From positions 1 through 22,213 of the IMG/VR virus record IMGVR_UViG_3300046373_000065: DNA of 22,213 nucleotides. One strand, 5' to 3'. Below the pieces are notes generated by a model. The model was not told the origin of the DNA. It made no database searches and worked only from the letters and a program-made list of their open reading frames with translations. Made by a program: the position numbers and the translations under genes. Positions 3,694 to 21,949 of the stretch are shown here, piece by piece (the stretch's first letter is position 1; each line of letters starts with the position of its first letter). This DNA comes from a virus.

Positions 3694-5835
3694 TTACTGG
3701 ATCGGCAGTGTGCCGGGTGGTTGCATGCCTTGTGACATGTCTGGCGGTGGAAGCATGGCCGTATCATTGGCCGGCTGTGCGTCAATTGGCGTCGGTTGAC
3801 CGGCTGCTGCCATCATGGTCTGAGCCTCGATGATGCCGATATCTGGGAGTGCGCCAGTGTTCTCTATGTGGGTCAACAGCTTGTCGAGACGGTCTGTCAT
3901 GGCCTGGTAGGACTTGATTTCTGTCTGTTTCGCCTTGTCGTCAGCTTCCTTCTCCTTGCTGGCGGACAAGTCCATGGCAGATGCAAGCTGTGCTTGCAGG
4001 TTCTTGATGGTGTCGGTGGCCTGCTGAAGTTCTGGCGACGGGCCTTCTCCCAAGATGTTCGCAGGAATGGAGCGCTTGAAGCGCTCTGCCAACTCGTCGG
4101 CGAGCGGGAAGTCTGCGGAAAGCATGTACAGATCGCCGGCCAGACCAAGAAACGATGGGTTCTGCGCAGCCAGGTCTGACATTGCGGCAAATGCTTCTTC
4201 ACGCTTGGTGGCATAAGAAGGGCCAGTGTCTGCCACAACTTCATATTTGCCAGCGCCTGGGTTGAAGATGCGCTCAACACCCTCGCCGCCCGGTTTCTCC
4301 TGTTCGACCATTGGCCCATTCTGCTGCGGGTCAATCTTCACGGTGTCATCGCTGCCGTCTTCAGCCAGTATGCGTACCACGCGAGGCGTGTCGTACACCT
4401 TCGGGATGATGTCGATCAGGATCTTACCGGTGTAGCGGATGCCCGTGGCCAGACCGTCACGGAAGTGGGAGGTCGAGGTTTCGCCCTGCTTGGCACGGCG
4501 TTTGATTGCTACGCCTGCGATCTCATTTGATGGCGCCCCCATCAACGCATCATTCTGGCCGCTGGCCATTTTCATTTCTTCGGCCGCAATCTGCATGCCT
4601 TGCATGTAGCCGGCGCTCATTACCGGCGCCTCGGCGCGCTGTGGCGGCGGAATAGGGTTGCCATTCTGATCAGCCGACTTGTAAGGCAGCACCGCGTGGT
4701 TTTCGGTGTTCGCCGTCTCCCAGATGGTTTCATAGCCTTCGATCGATCGGTCATCGGCGATGTAGGGGGTCTTGGTTTGGAGCGCTACATGTTCGGTCGC
4801 CGAGCTAGACCAGTAGTTGTACATGCGCTGCGGGTCTTTGATGTTGCGCACGTGGCCTTTGCGGTCGAGCTTGCCATCGATAACGCACTCTTCGCCAACG
4901 ATGCGCACAATCGGAATGGTCGTCCCAACCCAGTCGCTCCGCTCGACGATGGCGTCGCCGGCGATTTTGCACCACTTGATAGACGGGGTTTCGATTGGCC
5001 GGCGCTGAATGCCCTTGTCGGCCAGAACCATCTTGCCAAGATCAGGATTTTGCTCCATCAGTACCGACTTACGGATTGTGGTGATCTGCACACCACCGAC
5101 GCCGTCAGGCACAGGCATTGCGATCAGCTCATCAGTGACGTATTCGGTGTAGTAATACTCGGCGACCCTCACGGTGTCCAAGTTGCACCACTCATCAGAG
5201 CCGCTAATCGTCCCGCTTCCTACTTTGTCCTTATATTTCGGATACTTACGATTGAATTCCTTGCGCGGAACATCGTCATGGACGAAGCCCCACTTGGCGT
5301 CAGAACCGTCTACTTCCTTGATATTCGGGTCAAGAGTGACGCTTTGAGGGTTGCGAATCCTGCGGATGAAAATCTCTTGATCGAACGAGTCCTCATCGGC
5401 GTATTCGGTTACGACGCGCCAGTAGCCGATGCCCGTCCAGACTTGAAACTCGGTAGCTGTCTTGTAGGCGTCGGACGCGTTTGACTGGTACTGAATGTGA
5501 CGGGCCATTCCCTCGTAGACCTGGGCACTGTCGTAGGACGCCTCTCCGCCCACGGCACGGATCTTGATCGCGGGCAGACTTTCCTTGATGTCGTTGATGA
5601 TCATCAGGCACTGCTGGCGCGTCTTGTTGATGGTCAGGCATGGCTTGCGGTCGCTCTGCCGCGAGTTGCGCAGCGTATCCGGCCACTGATAACCGTTGTC
5701 AGGGTCGGCTCGCACGAACTTCAAATCGTCCGTGAACAGGTTGTTGAACTCCCCTTCCCACTCCCTGGCCATCTTGAAGCGTTCTTTGGCTTCACGGATC
5801 AGCTCTTCGTCTTTTGTCAGGCTCGTACTCGACAT
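3694..5835 (-). CDS. Portal protein, P22 gp1-like
   Basis: 713 aa, about the length of P22 gp1 (725 aa), the dodecameric ring through which DNA enters. The N-terminal stretch (EAKERFKMAREWEGEFNNLF ... DLKFVRADPDNGYQWPD) and the RKPCLTINKTRQQCLMIIND segment are the recognised P22-portal features. A wing/stem region follows, then a helical crown with a Gln/Ala-rich coiled coil (about residues 605-650) and a Pro/Gln-rich tail. P22 gp1 likewise has a long C-terminal helical barrel. It begins 1 nt after the terminase stop, with a GGA-type ribosome site inside the terminase end. Confidence 0.92.
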   Translation of the reverse strand: MSSTSLTKDEELIREAKERFKMAREWEGEFNNLFTDDLKFVRADPDNGYQWPDTLRNSRQSDRKPCLTINKTRQQCLMIINDIKESLPAIKIRAVGGEASYDSAQVYEGMARHIQYQSNASDAYKTATEFQVWTGIGYWRVVTEYADEDSFDQEIFIRRIRNPQSVTLDPNIKEVDGSDAKWGFVHDDVPRKEFNRKYPKYKDKVGSGTISGSDEWCNLDTVRVAEYYYTEYVTDELIAMPVPDGVGGVQITTIRKSVLMEQNPDLGKMVLADKGIQRRPIETPSIKWCKIAGDAIVERSDWVGTTIPIVRIVGEECVIDGKLDRKGHVRNIKDPQRMYNYWSSSATEHVALQTKTPYIADDRSIEGYETIWETANTENHAVLPYKSADQNGNPIPPPQRAEAPVMSAGYMQGMQIAAEEMKMASGQNDALMGAPSNEIAGVAIKRRAKQGETSTSHFRDGLATGIRYTGKILIDIIPKVYDTPRVVRILAEDGSDDTVKIDPQQNGPMVEQEKPGGEGVERIFNPGAGKYEVVADTGPSYATKREEAFAAMSDLAAQNPSFLGLAGDLYMLSADFPLADELAERFKRSIPANILGEGPSPELQQATDTIKNLQAQLASAMDLSASKEKEADDKAKQTEIKSYQAMTDRLDKLLTHIENTGALPDIGIIEAQTMMAAAGQPTPIDAQPANDTAMLPPPDMSQGMQPPGTLPIQ

Positions 5836-16821: not shown

Positions 16822-17148
16822 ATGAACAAAACAGTCATGTTTTTACAGGCTGATATGCACCGAGCCATCAACTCCGGGCGCACAAACATCGAGGTTTCAA
16901 TTCTTGATTTGAAGGAGCTGATCGGCGAGGTGATGCGCGCCGAGGCGAAGGAGACATTGCAGCGCACAGGGCAAGTCCTTGGATTTATCCGACCCGAGCA
17001 ATGCATGGCCATGGCGTCCGGCAAAGCGCTCTATGTCACGATCCGCCGGAAGAAGGACAAGGCTGGCGAATACTGCCAGCCGATTTATCGCGATATTCTC
17101 GACAAATCAGTTGAAGTGATATCAGAAAGCAGTCAGGATAGCGCCTGA
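16822..17148 (+). CDS. Hypothetical protein (108 aa)
   Basis: ATG with GAGG 6 nt upstream. Helical N-terminal half (MNKTVMFLQADMHRAINSGR; EVSILDLKELIGEVMRAEAK), then a beta/basic part (RPEQCMAMASGKALYVTIRR). Last gene before the structured RNA region and the recombination genes. No family recognised. Confidence 0.65.
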   Translation: MNKTVMFLQADMHRAINSGRTNIEVSILDLKELIGEVMRAEAKETLQRTGQVLGFIRPEQCMAMASGKALYVTIRRKKDKAGEYCQPIYRDILDKSVEVISESSQDSA

Positions 17149-17159
17149 AACAAAACGAC

Positions 17160-17261
17160 TTGGCGGTCGGATCAACTGGTAGGGATTCACGAAGACTGTG
17201 CAGGAACCAGTTCCTGTCCGCCAACGCCAGAAATGGTGACAGTCTTCCTGAATCCCTTTTT
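17160..17261 (+). ncRNA. Structured RNA with competing folds (switch- or attenuator-like) before the exonuclease gene
   Basis: Fold 1 (terminator): AGGGATTCACGAAGACTGT (17181-17199) pairs with 17239-17257 over 19 positions with one mismatch, followed by five T. Its loop holds a hairpin CAGGAA-CCAG-TTCCTG (17201-17216). Fold 2: TTGGCGG (17160-17166) pairs with CCGCCAA (17218-17224), and AACTGGT (17174-17180) with ACCAGTT (17206-17212). This nests the left arm of the terminator in a loop and cannot form together with fold 1's inner hairpin. It ends 19 nt before the exonuclease ATG. A tRNA-like outline is also present but lacks key tRNA bases. Confidence 0.5.
17181..17261 (+). terminator. Long-stem intrinsic terminator upstream of the exonuclease
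   Basis: 19-position stem with one C-C mismatch (17190 with 17248) and a T5 tract at 17257-17261. Only the plus strand has the T-tract. It would cut transcription between the accessory genes and the recombination genes unless bypassed. Confidence 0.65.
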
Positions 17262-17279
17262 CGTTTCTGGAGATACGAA

Positions 17280-18185
17280 ATGTTGGCACAACAACCTGTG
17301 GGAGAGCTGGACAGATCCAGTTACTTCGGATCAAGCGACATCGCCGCAATCCTCGGCATCAGCCCATGGCGTACAAAACTTGATGTCTTCCTCGACAAGA
17401 CCAAAGGCCGCGAAGAGATCACCCTCGAGAAGGCTGCAATCTTCAAGCGAGGCAAACGCCTGGAACCCTACATACTCGACATGTACGCGGAAGACACTGG
17501 TGAAAGCCTGATCCATCGTGGCGAACGCTACATCGATCTGGAATACCCATTCCTGGCCGCAGAGATAGACGCCGAAACCGAAAGCGGGAAGAACGTAGAA
17601 GCCAAGTCCGCCCGCGCGGACTGGAACAAGGTCTGGGGATCCGAGATGACCGACGAGATCCCGGTCTACTACAACGCTCAGGCCATGTTCGGCATGGGCA
17701 TAAACGGCGCCGAGTCGGCAGAGTTCCCGGTGCTGATCGGCATCGACGACTTCCGTATTTACCGTGTCGAGCGCGACCAGCAGATCATCGCCAATCTAAA
17801 AAAGGCGGCGGTCGAATTCTGGAATGACCACATCGTCACCGGTGTTGCGCCGGAGCCAACAACAGTCGACGACATTGAGCGGCTGTTCCCTTGGGACGCC
17901 GGCAGCGTTATCCAGGCAACTGATCAGATCCGCGATGCCTATTTGGATCTGAAAGACCTGAAGAAGCGCATCAAATTGCTTGAAGATGACGCAGAAGAGG
18001 CGGCCAAGCGAATTAAGTTGTTTATGGGCGAGCATCAGATATTGAAGTTCGGTGCCGAGCAACTGCTGAGCTGGAAATCGCAAAAAGCCAGGCTGTTCGA
18101 TGCAAAAGCGTTCACCGCAAAACACCCAACCATTGCGGAGAAATTCCGCTACGACAGAGCCAGTCGCGTCATGAGGATCAAATAA
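17280..18185 (+). CDS. YqaJ/lambda-Exo-type 5'-3' alkaline exonuclease
   Basis: 301 aa. ATG at 17280 is chosen (GGAG 9 nt upstream); the frame is open further upstream, but only over the terminator. N-terminal GSSDIAAILGISPW (residues 17-30) is the YqaJ signature. Then GKRLEPYIL with Glu62. The PD-(D/E)xK centre is Asp97 and Glu107-Ala-Lys109, the same Asp-x9-Glu-x-Lys spacing as in lambda Exo. The C-terminal part is helical (YLDLKDLKKRIKLLEDDAEE). It resects duplex ends to give 3' single strands for RecT. The stop overlaps the RecT start by one base, so the two are co-translated. Confidence 0.93.
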   Translation: MLAQQPVGELDRSSYFGSSDIAAILGISPWRTKLDVFLDKTKGREEITLEKAAIFKRGKRLEPYILDMYAEDTGESLIHRGERYIDLEYPFLAAEIDAETESGKNVEAKSARADWNKVWGSEMTDEIPVYYNAQAMFGMGINGAESAEFPVLIGIDDFRIYRVERDQQIIANLKKAAVEFWNDHIVTGVAPEPTTVDDIERLFPWDAGSVIQATDQIRDAYLDLKDLKKRIKLLEDDAEEAAKRIKLFMGEHQILKFGAEQLLSWKSQKARLFDAKAFTAKHPTIAEKFRYDRASRVMRIK

Positions 18186-19117
18186 TGAGCACCAACCAAT
18201 TGCGCCAGGCAGCCAGCGGGCAAGCGCCTGCGGCTCAAGCTACAGACCCGAAATCAATCATGGGGCTGATGAACAGCGATAGCGTCAAAAAGCAAATGGC
18301 GCTGGCCATGCCGAAGCATCTTACGGCTGATCGGATGATGCGTATCGCTATGACAGAAGTTCGCAAAGTCCCGGCTTTGGGAAAGTGCAACGTCCAGTCA
18401 TTCATGGGCGCCATCATGCAATGCGCGCAGCTCGGCCTTGAACCTGGCGCCGCGCTCGGCCACGCCTACCTGCTTCCTTTCGGAAATGGCAAGGCATCTG
18501 ACGGGCTGGCCAACTGTCAGCTAATCATTGGCTATCGCGGGATGATTGATCTGGCTCGGCGTTCAGGGCAGATCATCAGTCTCAATGCGCGAGCTGTATA
18601 CAGCAACGACCAGTTTTCCTACACCTACGGCCTTGATGAAACACTGGAGCATGTCCCGGCCACAGGCGAGCGCGGAGAATTCACGCATGTTTATGCCGTG
18701 GCCAAGTTGAAAGGCGGCGGGATCCAGTTCGAAGTCATGTCTAAGGCCGACGTGATGAGAGTCAAGGCAAGCAGCAAAGCCGGGAACAACGGCCCATGGG
18801 TCAGCCATTTTGACGAGATGGCAAAGAAGACTGTGATCCGGCGCCTGTTCAAGTACCTGCCGGTTTCCATCGAGGTCACTCAAGCGGTGATCCTCGACGA
18901 GAAGGCGGACGCCGGCATCGATCAGGATAACGCCTCGGCCATCACAGGCGAATTCAGCGTATTCGAGGAGCCGCAACAGCTCGGTGTTGATGAAGCGTTG
19001 GACAAAGAAACTGGTGAGATCACCGAGCCGAAGAAACGCCAGGAAAAACAGCAGGATCCTGAGCCAGAAGTCGAAAATGACGATAAAGGCTCCGAACCAG
19101 AATTCTCCATGGAATAA
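18185..19117 (+). CDS. recT: RecT-family single-strand annealing protein
   Basis: 310 aa. Core (residues about 25-235) has the RecT landmarks: SVKKQMALAMPKHLTADRMM, VRKVPALGKCNVQSFMGAIM, CAQLGLEPGAALGHAYLLPF, then LIIGYRGMIDLARRSGQI and the EMAKKTVIRRLFKYLP motif. The N-terminal 20 residues are Gln/Ala-rich, and the tail (after about 240) is acidic, as in many annealases that bind SSB or nuclease. It anneals the 3' strands made by the exonuclease encoded just upstream (TAATG overlap). Confidence 0.95.
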   Translation: MSTNQLRQAASGQAPAAQATDPKSIMGLMNSDSVKKQMALAMPKHLTADRMMRIAMTEVRKVPALGKCNVQSFMGAIMQCAQLGLEPGAALGHAYLLPFGNGKASDGLANCQLIIGYRGMIDLARRSGQIISLNARAVYSNDQFSYTYGLDETLEHVPATGERGEFTHVYAVAKLKGGGIQFEVMSKADVMRVKASSKAGNNGPWVSHFDEMAKKTVIRRLFKYLPVSIEVTQAVILDEKADAGIDQDNASAITGEFSVFEEPQQLGVDEALDKETGEITEPKKRQEKQQDPEPEVENDDKGSEPEFSME

Positions 19118-19170: not shown

Positions 19171-20133
19171 ATGAACGCTCAGCAAAAAGCAGTGATCGAC
19201 AAAGCAGCAAAAGAGGGCAAACTCCCATCCGAAATTACTGGTGAATTTCTTCTGCATGATCTGGTGCAGGCCTGCATCGGCCAGCTCAGCAAGCACGAAG
19301 TAGGCTTCCGCAAGCTGACCGAAAAACAGCAGGACGCGGCTATCGCCGAGTTGACCGACAATCTCAAGGAAAGCGCATTGCTGGCAGCGCGCATCATCGC
19401 CAGCGCCGGAACTCCGACCGTAAGCGGAACCCTGAAGAAAATCGCCATCGATGCAAAATCCGTCCTGACCGTCAGCGTCGACGGCGGCGAGAAATACTTC
19501 AACGAGCTGATCAGCAAGACCCAGGACAAGTCTGATGTCCTGATCGTTCTGTACGAGCGCGATTATTTCGATGCCCTGGACAACATCCAGTCCGAGAAGG
19601 ACCAGAAATCTTTGCCGCTGGACGGTGATAAGCCGGCCAAGAAAGCCCCAGCCAAGGGCAAGACCAAGGCCGCCGCCGATGTCGCCGCGTCCATCGCCCT
19701 GGAACCGGCCATGATGGAGAAGGCCAGCAAGTTCATCACGGACGTGCGTACACCGACCATCGCCGGCATCCAGAACGTGCTGGGAATTGGCTTCCAGAAG
19801 GCTGAAGCGGTTTTGGCCGAGCTGGCGCGCAAGGGCGAGATCGTTGCCGAGGAAGATGGCAGCTACAGCATGCCGAAGGCCATAAAGACCTTAGTCGATC
19901 CCGTAGACGATCAGGACGGCCCAGCGATTCACGCAGAGCTGACCGAAGACCTCTATCAGTCGATCAAGGCCGGGGTGATCGAGAAGCAAAGCGTGGCGAA
20001 GATCGCAATCACCATCAAGCATGGCGTGACCGATGAAGTCGCTGACGACGCAATCGACCGCCTGGAAATGGAAGGCGTCATTTCTGCGGAAGACGAGATG
20101 GGCGGCCGCGAAGTTCTTGAGCGGGTCGCTTGA
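19171..20133 (+). CDS. Protein with two FtsK-gamma-like winged helices
   Basis: 320 aa, AAGGAAATACC upstream of ATG. Residues 1-145 form an unrecognised helical domain (FLLHDLVQACIGQLSKHEVG; LTEKQQDAAIAELTDNLKES). A Lys/Ala-rich linker (about 150-175) follows. Residues about 178-232 (ASKFITDVRTPTIAGIQNVL, GFQKAEAVLAELARKGEIV) resemble the FtsK gamma domain, which reads KOPS DNA. Residues about 253-317 (IDRLEMEGVISAEDEMGGRE) look like a second, weaker copy. There is no motor ATPase domain, so it is not a DNA pump. Likely a DNA-binding partner of the exonuclease-RecT system. Confidence 0.7.
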   Translation: MNAQQKAVIDKAAKEGKLPSEITGEFLLHDLVQACIGQLSKHEVGFRKLTEKQQDAAIAELTDNLKESALLAARIIASAGTPTVSGTLKKIAIDAKSVLTVSVDGGEKYFNELISKTQDKSDVLIVLYERDYFDALDNIQSEKDQKSLPLDGDKPAKKAPAKGKTKAAADVAASIALEPAMMEKASKFITDVRTPTIAGIQNVLGIGFQKAEAVLAELARKGEIVAEEDGSYSMPKAIKTLVDPVDDQDGPAIHAELTEDLYQSIKAGVIEKQSVAKIAITIKHGVTDEVADDAIDRLEMEGVISAEDEMGGREVLERVA

Positions 20134-20206: not shown

Positions 20207-21949
20207 ATGAAGCTCCAATCCATCGCGATTTCTGAAGTGCTTGGCCTGTCAAGGGCGGACATCAATTTTGGTGGCGTAACCCTCGTGGCCGGCGATAACG
20301 CTGTAGGAAAATCCACACTGGCCGACTGCATCAGCATGGCGCTGCTCGGCACGCCATCTCGCGTTTCGGCAAAGAAGGATCTTGCGCAGCTCCTGCGCGA
20401 CAATGCCGCAAAAGGCCGAATCACCATCAGCTACGAAGATGGCGAAGGCACAGCAGAGTTTCGCCTTCCAAAGGGCGAGCATCATGCCAGTGAGTTCCCA
20501 GGGATGCAGTTTCTTCCCTTTGTCCTGCGGCCTTCGAAGTTTGCCGAGCTGGATGCTGATCAGCGCCGCACGCTACTTTTCCAGCTGACCAACTGCAAGG
20601 CCTCCAGCAAGATCATCATCCAGAAACTGGTTGAGCGGGGCATCGACGAGTCGCTGGCGACAGACTTCGCGATCAACTGGAAGACTGGATTCCCGGCGGC
20701 GGCAAAAGAGGCTTATGCGCGCGGCACAACCGCCAAGGGTGCGTGGGGGCAGATCACTGGGCAGAAGTGGGGATCGATTGTTGCTGAAGACTGGAAAGCA
20801 CCTACGCCAGAAGGCAAGTGCCCGACCGAGGCCGAGTTGCAAGCAATCATGGCCGAGCATGAAAAGGTTGCTGCCGAAGTCGAGAAGGGCCAGCAATACG
20901 TCGGCGGCCTAGAGGCAAAGCGCGAGGCATCTGCCAGCTATGTGCAGCGCAAGCAGGCCGTCGAAGAACTGGCCGGCCAACTGGAGCGACGCCAGGCGAA
21001 GAAGGCTGCCACCGAAAAGGATCTGTCAGAGCGCGAGGCTGAACTGCCGGCGATGGTCGAAGAGCTGGCCACTCTTCAGGCCGGAGCCATCCCGGTCGCT
21101 TGCCCTTGCTGCGGCGAGCAGCTGCGCATCAACGGCGGCACGCTGGATAAGTTCCAGGGCCTGAAGGCAGATACCAAGCTGGTTACCGACTTAGCGCTGC
21201 GCGTGCGCAACATGAAGGATGCCATCGAGCTGCTGAAGCGCACACTATCCAACGATATAGCGTCGGTCGCCGAGGCCGTTTCTGCGGGCAAGCAGCTTGA
21301 ATCGATTTTGGCTGAGCAGATTGAGGTGATCGACGAAGCCAAAATCCAACAGGGCAAAGATGCTCTCGCAGGGCAGAAGGCCAAGGCCAATACGCTGCGT
21401 GCCGAGTTCAATGCAAAACAGCAGGCCCGCATCGACTTCTCCAAGGTTGCCGAGAAGACCGAGCAGGCTGCCAAAGCACATGCAGAGGTCAAGACCTGGC
21501 TGGCCGTCGGTGATGCGCTTTCGCCGGACGGGATCCCGGCTGATCTTCTGGCTGATGCGATCGCGCCGTTCAACCAGTCGCTGGCTGCCCACGCCAGCCT
21601 CTGCGGGTGGAAATCTCCAGAAGTTCAGGCTGACATGACTCTCACTTACGGCGGACGCCTGTACGGGCTTTGCAGCGCATCCGAGAAATGGCGCGCCGAT
21701 GCTTTGTTTGCGCTGGCCATTGCGCAGATCAGCCAGTTGAAGCTTGTGGTGCTGGACGGTTTCGACATTCTGCACGCCGCCGCGAGACAGGAACTGCTTG
21801 GCATGTGCTGTCAGCTGGAGCAAATGAAATCGATGGAAACCATCATTCTTTGCGGAACGATGAAAGAGCTGCCACCAGCTTCGGCGCTGGCAAAACGAGG
21901 CGTAACCGGCGTATGGATTGCCAAAGGAATCGCGGAGAACCAATCATGA
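20207..21949 (+). CDS. Rad50/SbcC-like ATPase with zinc-hook motif
   Basis: 580 aa, GGAGAAAGACCA upstream of ATG. N-lobe: Walker A GDNAVGKST (residues 29-37). Then coiled-coil arms (about 220-285 and 320-430) around a hook-like ACPCCGEQL with Cys299 and Cys302, the CxxC of Rad50/SbcC hooks. C-lobe: ABC signature-like CSASEKW (489-495) and Walker B LVVLDGFD (Asp517, Asp520). Gly518 stands where the catalytic Glu usually follows the Walker B Asp, so hydrolysis may be weak or use Asp520. It is shorter than SbcC (about 1000 aa). No SbcD-like nuclease is adjacent; the Exo-RecT genes may be its partners. Confidence 0.85.
   Translation: MKLQSIAISEVLGLSRADINFGGVTLVAGDNAVGKSTLADCISMALLGTPSRVSAKKDLAQLLRDNAAKGRITISYEDGEGTAEFRLPKGEHHASEFPGMQFLPFVLRPSKFAELDADQRRTLLFQLTNCKASSKIIIQKLVERGIDESLATDFAINWKTGFPAAAKEAYARGTTAKGAWGQITGQKWGSIVAEDWKAPTPEGKCPTEAELQAIMAEHEKVAAEVEKGQQYVGGLEAKREASASYVQRKQAVEELAGQLERRQAKKAATEKDLSEREAELPAMVEELATLQAGAIPVACPCCGEQLRINGGTLDKFQGLKADTKLVTDLALRVRNMKDAIELLKRTLSNDIASVAEAVSAGKQLESILAEQIEVIDEAKIQQGKDALAGQKAKANTLRAEFNAKQQARIDFSKVAEKTEQAAKAHAEVKTWLAVGDALSPDGIPADLLADAIAPFNQSLAAHASLCGWKSPEVQADMTLTYGGRLYGLCSASEKWRADALFALAIAQISQLKLVVLDGFDILHAAARQELLGMCCQLEQMKSMETIILCGTMKELPPASALAKRGVTGVWIAKGIAENQS

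Follow-up and report, generated by a model that had tools for sequence, protein, structure and literature searches.

A probable transcription attenuator with two competing RNA folds precedes the yqaJ-recT recombination genes of a phage

The control of early genes in phages is commonly attributed to repressors and protein antiterminators. In the window analysed here (a 22,213-nt stretch of viral DNA, IMG/VR record IMGVR_UViG_3300046373_000065), from a phage that carries a P22-like portal protein, a 131-nt gap (17149-17279) separates the stop codon of an upstream ORF from the ATG of a YqaJ-type exonuclease gene, raising the question of whether an RNA encoded there could govern the transcription of the recombination genes. 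A preliminary description had proposed that this gap holds a long terminator stem ending in T5, together with two upstream segments complementary to the terminator loop, a layout of competing terminator and antiterminator. The gap, the stem, the T-run and both complementarities were verified on the sequence at the positions claimed (Table 1): the stem has 18 base pairs and one C·C mismatch and is followed by TTTTT, while TTGGCGG and AACTGGT are complementary to CCGCCAA and ACCAGTT, respectively, within the terminator loop. The element region folded at -52.5 kcal/mol, as compared with -36.9 +/- 3.7 for shuffled sequences (z -4.2; none of 200 as stable), and the pairing of the 5' segment with the loop, i.e., the antiterminator, reached -25.3 kcal/mol against -13.0 +/- 2.9 (z -4.3; 0/500), both being beyond chance. 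A tRNA-like outline had also been suggested for the upper part of the structure; this was rejected, as ARAGORN detected no tRNA anywhere in the window, and AACTGGTAGG consists of the P2 strand and the first part of the terminator arm and covaries with its partners in relatives. Neither the de novo detector nor the covariance model found a second copy of the element in the window.

Table 1. Features of the element and of the genes downstream of it in the window.
Feature	Position	Strand	Remarks
Predicted sigma70 promoter	17111-17139	+	TTGAAG (17111-17116), 17-nt spacer, CAGGAT (17134-17139); start expected near 17146
P0, 5' hairpin CGAC-UUGGCG-GUCG	17156-17169	+	Loop presented for P1; many distinct stems in the family
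P1, 5' strand TTGGCGG	17160-17166	+	Partner 17218-17224 (antiterminator); other paired sequences in L551 and in the second copy of L453
P2, 5' strand AACTGGT	17174-17180	+	Partner 17206-17212; abuts terminator left arm
Terminator left arm	17181-17199	+	Sits in antiterminator loop
P3 hairpin GCAGGAA-CCAG-UUCCUGU	17200-17217	+	Contains P2 3' strand (17206-17212)
P1, 3' strand CCGCCAA	17218-17224	+	Junction
P4 hairpin CGCCA-GAAA-UGGUG	17225-17238	+	GNRA loop in the window; loop variable elsewhere
Terminator right arm and U-run	17239-17261	+	Arm 17239-17257, 18 pairs and one mismatch; U-run 17257-17261
Probable ribosome-binding site GGAG	17269-17272	+	From sequence; 3' of terminator
yqaJ-type exonuclease (gated gene)	17280-18185	+	Pfam YqaJ E 1e-17; PHROG RecE-like exonuclease E 4e-78
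recT-type annealing protein	18185-19117	+	Pfam RecT E 1e-54; co-directional, adjacent to yqaJ

The same structure, with paired changes, was found in two close YqaJ relatives (L001 and L002). To collect further members, a pattern search was performed in which only the P1 strands were fixed, with a gap between them; it returned at least 120 stretches, and a terminator filter left at least 56 distinct real elements, 55 of which were aligned (alignment A7). The order of parts in these elements, here called type A, is promoter (recognisable in most members), P0 with the usual loop UUGGCG, P2, terminator left arm, P3, P1 junction strand, P4, right arm and U-run. Among the 55 distinct sequences, 96.4% of the cells were paired, as opposed to 74.1% after shuffling; 32 of 41 pairs showed double changes, and the covariation score was 0.574 versus 0.158 +/- 0.008. 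Compensatory changes were present in all 18 terminator pairs, in four of the five pairs of the P0 stem and in the five pairs of P4, and P3 changed in pairs as well. On the coding strand, G·U cells in the helices numbered 161 and A·C cells 15, an excess that points to selection on the coding-strand RNA. DNA patterns placed such elements, of type A or of the type B described below, in front of YqaJ, RecT, ERF, DUF1376, HNH, GIY-YIG, FtsK-gamma-like and other genes. The type A elements constitute a large RNA family located before replication and recombination genes in dozens of phages.

The two antiterminator pairings were considered separately. P2 is absent from the alignment model and was therefore tested within each sequence: 34 of 36 distinct P3 loops could pair over at least 5 bp with their own 5' strand, while 1000 permutations gave a mean of 11.9 and a maximum of 18. 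P1 was at an early stage viewed as invariant in sequence, a view that was dropped because the search pattern itself demanded P1, its invariance in that set being partly an artefact, and because two members differ. In L551, from a genome of the order Burkholderiales, P1 is replaced by UUGGUCG/CGACCAA, and in the second copy of L453 by CUGCAA/UUGCAG; both came from covariance models in which P1 pairing carries no score, and their different but paired sequences indicate that P1 pairs too. The L453 contig carries two type A elements (2207-2320 and 4021-4140), 1.8 kb apart, whose P1 sequences differ. The preliminary description had named relatives lacking paired changes as the outcome that would count against it; instead, the terminator (18/18 pairs), P0, P3, P4, P2 and, in two members, P1 were all seen to change in pairs, and this comparison across relatives supports the proposed terminator/antiterminator layout before phage recombination genes.

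Four YqaJ relatives with 59-63% identity (L003, L004, L005 and L008) carried a second form, type B, which has the same strand order in an unrelated sequence and precedes YqaJ, ERF and other genes. Types A and B are alike in strand order and setting. Pseudomonas phage AH02 harbours both: its leftward arm has a type B element, and its rightward arm, after ninB, a type A element in which P2 is wholly exchanged for another paired sequence (TCAGCA/TGCTGA). The element was lacking in all the YqaJ relatives read below about 59% identity, indicating that it does not travel with yqaJ. The de novo detector used first let 256 of 275 control terminators pass and was too permissive; a stricter one returned 18 terminators, versus 4 in two shuffles, and 16 of the 18 were type A or B. 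A leader peptide in type B was rejected, since indels and stops interrupt the frame, also in AH02_28; this annotated hypothetical protein, inside the type B RNA at 6011-6139 of L383, is probably not a gene, as its frame is not conserved.

The known hosts are Pseudomonas koreensis for AH02 and, at the level of order only, Burkholderiales for L551. Surveys of prophages, with 7-10 candidates scored per genome, gave no positive among 399 Pseudomonas genomes with R1 and with R2, and none among 369 genomes of its class and one among 349 Burkholderiales genomes with R3; at that number of candidates an absence from prophages is weakly supported. A BLAST search of the element against phages and plasmids gave few matches.

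The position of the element relative to promoter and gene was then compared across members. The promoter match in the window is individually weak (rank p 0.15), as it is in several other members, and the evidence for it comes from its placement. Of 18 type A and B members, 17 have a readable -35 box starting with TTG at a spacing of 17-18 nt, with the -10 box ending 16-20 nt upstream of the antiterminator arm, a nearly fixed distance; across type A, a TTG -35 at 16-18 nt was found in 25 of 56 members, versus 2.2 in shuffles. A promoter conserved in place is thus predicted, and from the -10 distance and the excess of TTG boxes the RNA is expected to start at P0 or shortly before it. At the other end, the yqaJ start codon lies 18 nt past the U-run in the window, and throughout the family the start codon mostly follows it by 8-18 nt, always in a co-directional reading frame. 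This gap is too short for a second promoter, indicating that the gene needs readthrough of the terminator. Relatives without the element (Pseudomonas phage PfAn1, L552, near 27575-27640, and L276-L281) have a sigma70-like promoter, e.g., TTGACT-N17-CAAGAA, directly 5' of the YqaJ-like nuclease; promoter-like sequence at this same spot fits a module situated between promoter and gene.

The order in which the two folds appear was computed for the growing RNA of 18 type A and B members. In all of them the probability of P1 stood at 0.86-1.0 just ahead of the synthesis of the terminator's right arm. In type A the antiterminator collapsed once the right arm appeared, and the terminator was lower in energy in every member, whereas in type B the antiterminator often persisted close to or through the U-run, the two folds lying within about 10 kcal/mol of each other, by nested-fold energies that do not capture the full pseudoknot. 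No linker separates the P2 strand from the left arm, and the partner of this strand is at the other end of the 18-bp stem, so that, on geometric grounds, P2 and the full terminator should exclude each other. We propose that the dedicated promoter would start an RNA whose first nucleotides fold as P0; as elongation proceeds, P1 would form between the P0 loop and the junction strand, and P2 between the strand that follows P0 and the P3 loop region; in the resulting compact, pseudoknot-like fold the future left arm of the terminator would be held in the connecting loop. If this fold persisted, through a bound factor or fast passage of the polymerase, transcription would read through into yqaJ-recT; if it yielded, the two arms would zip over 18 pairs and transcription would end within the U-run, some 18 nt short of the start codon.

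An intrinsic terminator between promoter and start codon, and a competing upstream fold backed by paired changes in P2 and P1, are what an attenuator would have, and we consider that the element is quite probably a promoter-proximal transcription attenuator acting in cis on the phage recombination cassette, a reading that draws on sequence comparison and folding models. Under an attenuator, both folds would be populated in the cell, their balance would be regulated in the proposed ON/OFF direction, and readthrough at the element would be a controlled event; for type A, where the modelled terminator wins at equilibrium, plain termination with some leak is possible. With regard to a riboswitch, which would have a conserved ligand-binding core, few nucleotides outside the pairs were conserved, and the conservation of P1 is biased by the search pattern. 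No conserved leader ORF was found in the type A sequences read, which speaks against a peptide-leader attenuator.

The main rival of an attenuator is a phage small RNA gene, possibly with a dual role, whose promoter-to-terminator transcript of about 115 nt would act in trans on nascent copies, an mRNA or a protein, the downstream gene being served by leak or by upstream transcription. A promoter, a compact conserved fold and a strong terminator are what such a gene looks like, the exposed P0 loop could pair in trans, and IsrK of prophage Gifsy-1 provides a precedent (PMC4825925); a dual role like that of IsrK would add attenuation to the trans activity. However, the element mostly stands 8-18 nt before the start codon of many different genes, as a free small RNA need not, and P2 finds its match inside each molecule, a constraint that a trans target would not impose; we regard a small RNA gene as the less likely explanation, at perhaps a minor share of the probability. 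An even smaller share falls to a constitutive terminator or insulator between the upstream operon and the recombination genes, with the loop complementarity having no role. The 18-bp stem with its U-run and the terminator fold that the models favour at equilibrium in type A would suit it, but P0, P1, P2, P3 and P4 covary, none of which a plain terminator needs, and the element is preceded by a promoter, only promoter-like sequence being present at that place in the element-less PfAn1 and L276-L281. A long inverted repeat beside exonuclease and annealing genes might also suggest a feature of the DNA, such as a cruciform, a recombination or replication site or a palindromic operator; this is the least credible of the readings, given that G·U cells outnumber A·C cells (161 to 15) on the coding strand, and that T-run and promoter share one orientation with the co-directional reading frame always 3'.

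None of the 4227 families of Rfam 15 matched the element at the gathering cut-off, with relaxed scans yielding weak, implausible matches only, and no paper describing it was found in the open-access literature, a scope that leaves out most subscription journals. As in classical attenuators and transcriptional riboswitches, two leader folds compete and the later one is an intrinsic terminator before the start codon; unlike in those, the antiterminator helices enclose the left arm of the terminator in a loop rather than contain it, and the enclosing pairings are of a hairpin loop with a junction (P1) and of a strand with a hairpin loop (P2). Short RNAs control the premature termination of replication-gene leaders in the CI RNA immunity of satellite phage P4 and in the attenuation of plasmids pT181 and pIP501, but there a separate trans-acting RNA is involved, and none was found for the element. 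The put RNA of HK022, of about 70 nt, is an early-operon phage RNA with two stem-loops that binds the zinc-binding domain of the polymerase and promotes readthrough of terminators, with one copy per early operon (PMC9378689). The modelled antiterminator state of the element likewise has two adjacent stem-loops, and AH02 has one type A and one type B element in its two arms; put, compared here by its description, has no built-in competing terminator. The short and readthrough isoforms of IsrK share a promoter and a terminator and adopt alternative structures (PMC4825925), resembling the element as a phage promoter-terminator RNA; IsrK acts through trans pairing to control the translation of an ORF, whereas no such ORF or target was identified for the element.

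A broader reading, which we hold only tentatively and judge rather doubtful, is that the element represents a widespread new class of phage pseudoknot RNA that would sense a host or infection signal (a metabolite, a protein or the state of the polymerase) and decide cotranscriptionally whether replication and recombination cassettes are switched on. The class would comprise two or more architectures, A and B being alike in strand order, unrelated in sequence and used together in one phage. In any case, a self-contained cassette of predicted promoter plus RNA, outside Rfam, stands before genes that commit the phage to replication and recombination. If confirmed, it would be a new kind of switch in phages, one whose mechanism can be tested directly; it would also supply compact RNA control parts for the annealing-protein genes employed in recombineering, and serve as a marker in the annotation of viral dark matter.

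The neighbouring genes of the window were also inspected. The small protein upstream of the element (16822-17148) had no Pfam or PHROG match; its homologues occur in phages AH02, Jeremy, Dolphis and PfAn1, and in AH02 the homologue also lies just upstream of the type B element. An FtsK-gamma-like protein (19171-20133, PHROG 6576) is encoded 3' of recT; in L224 and L233, the first gene to follow the type B element encodes a protein that looks similar. An SbcC-like AAA ATPase (20207-21949, PHROG 77) marks the end of the recombination cassette.
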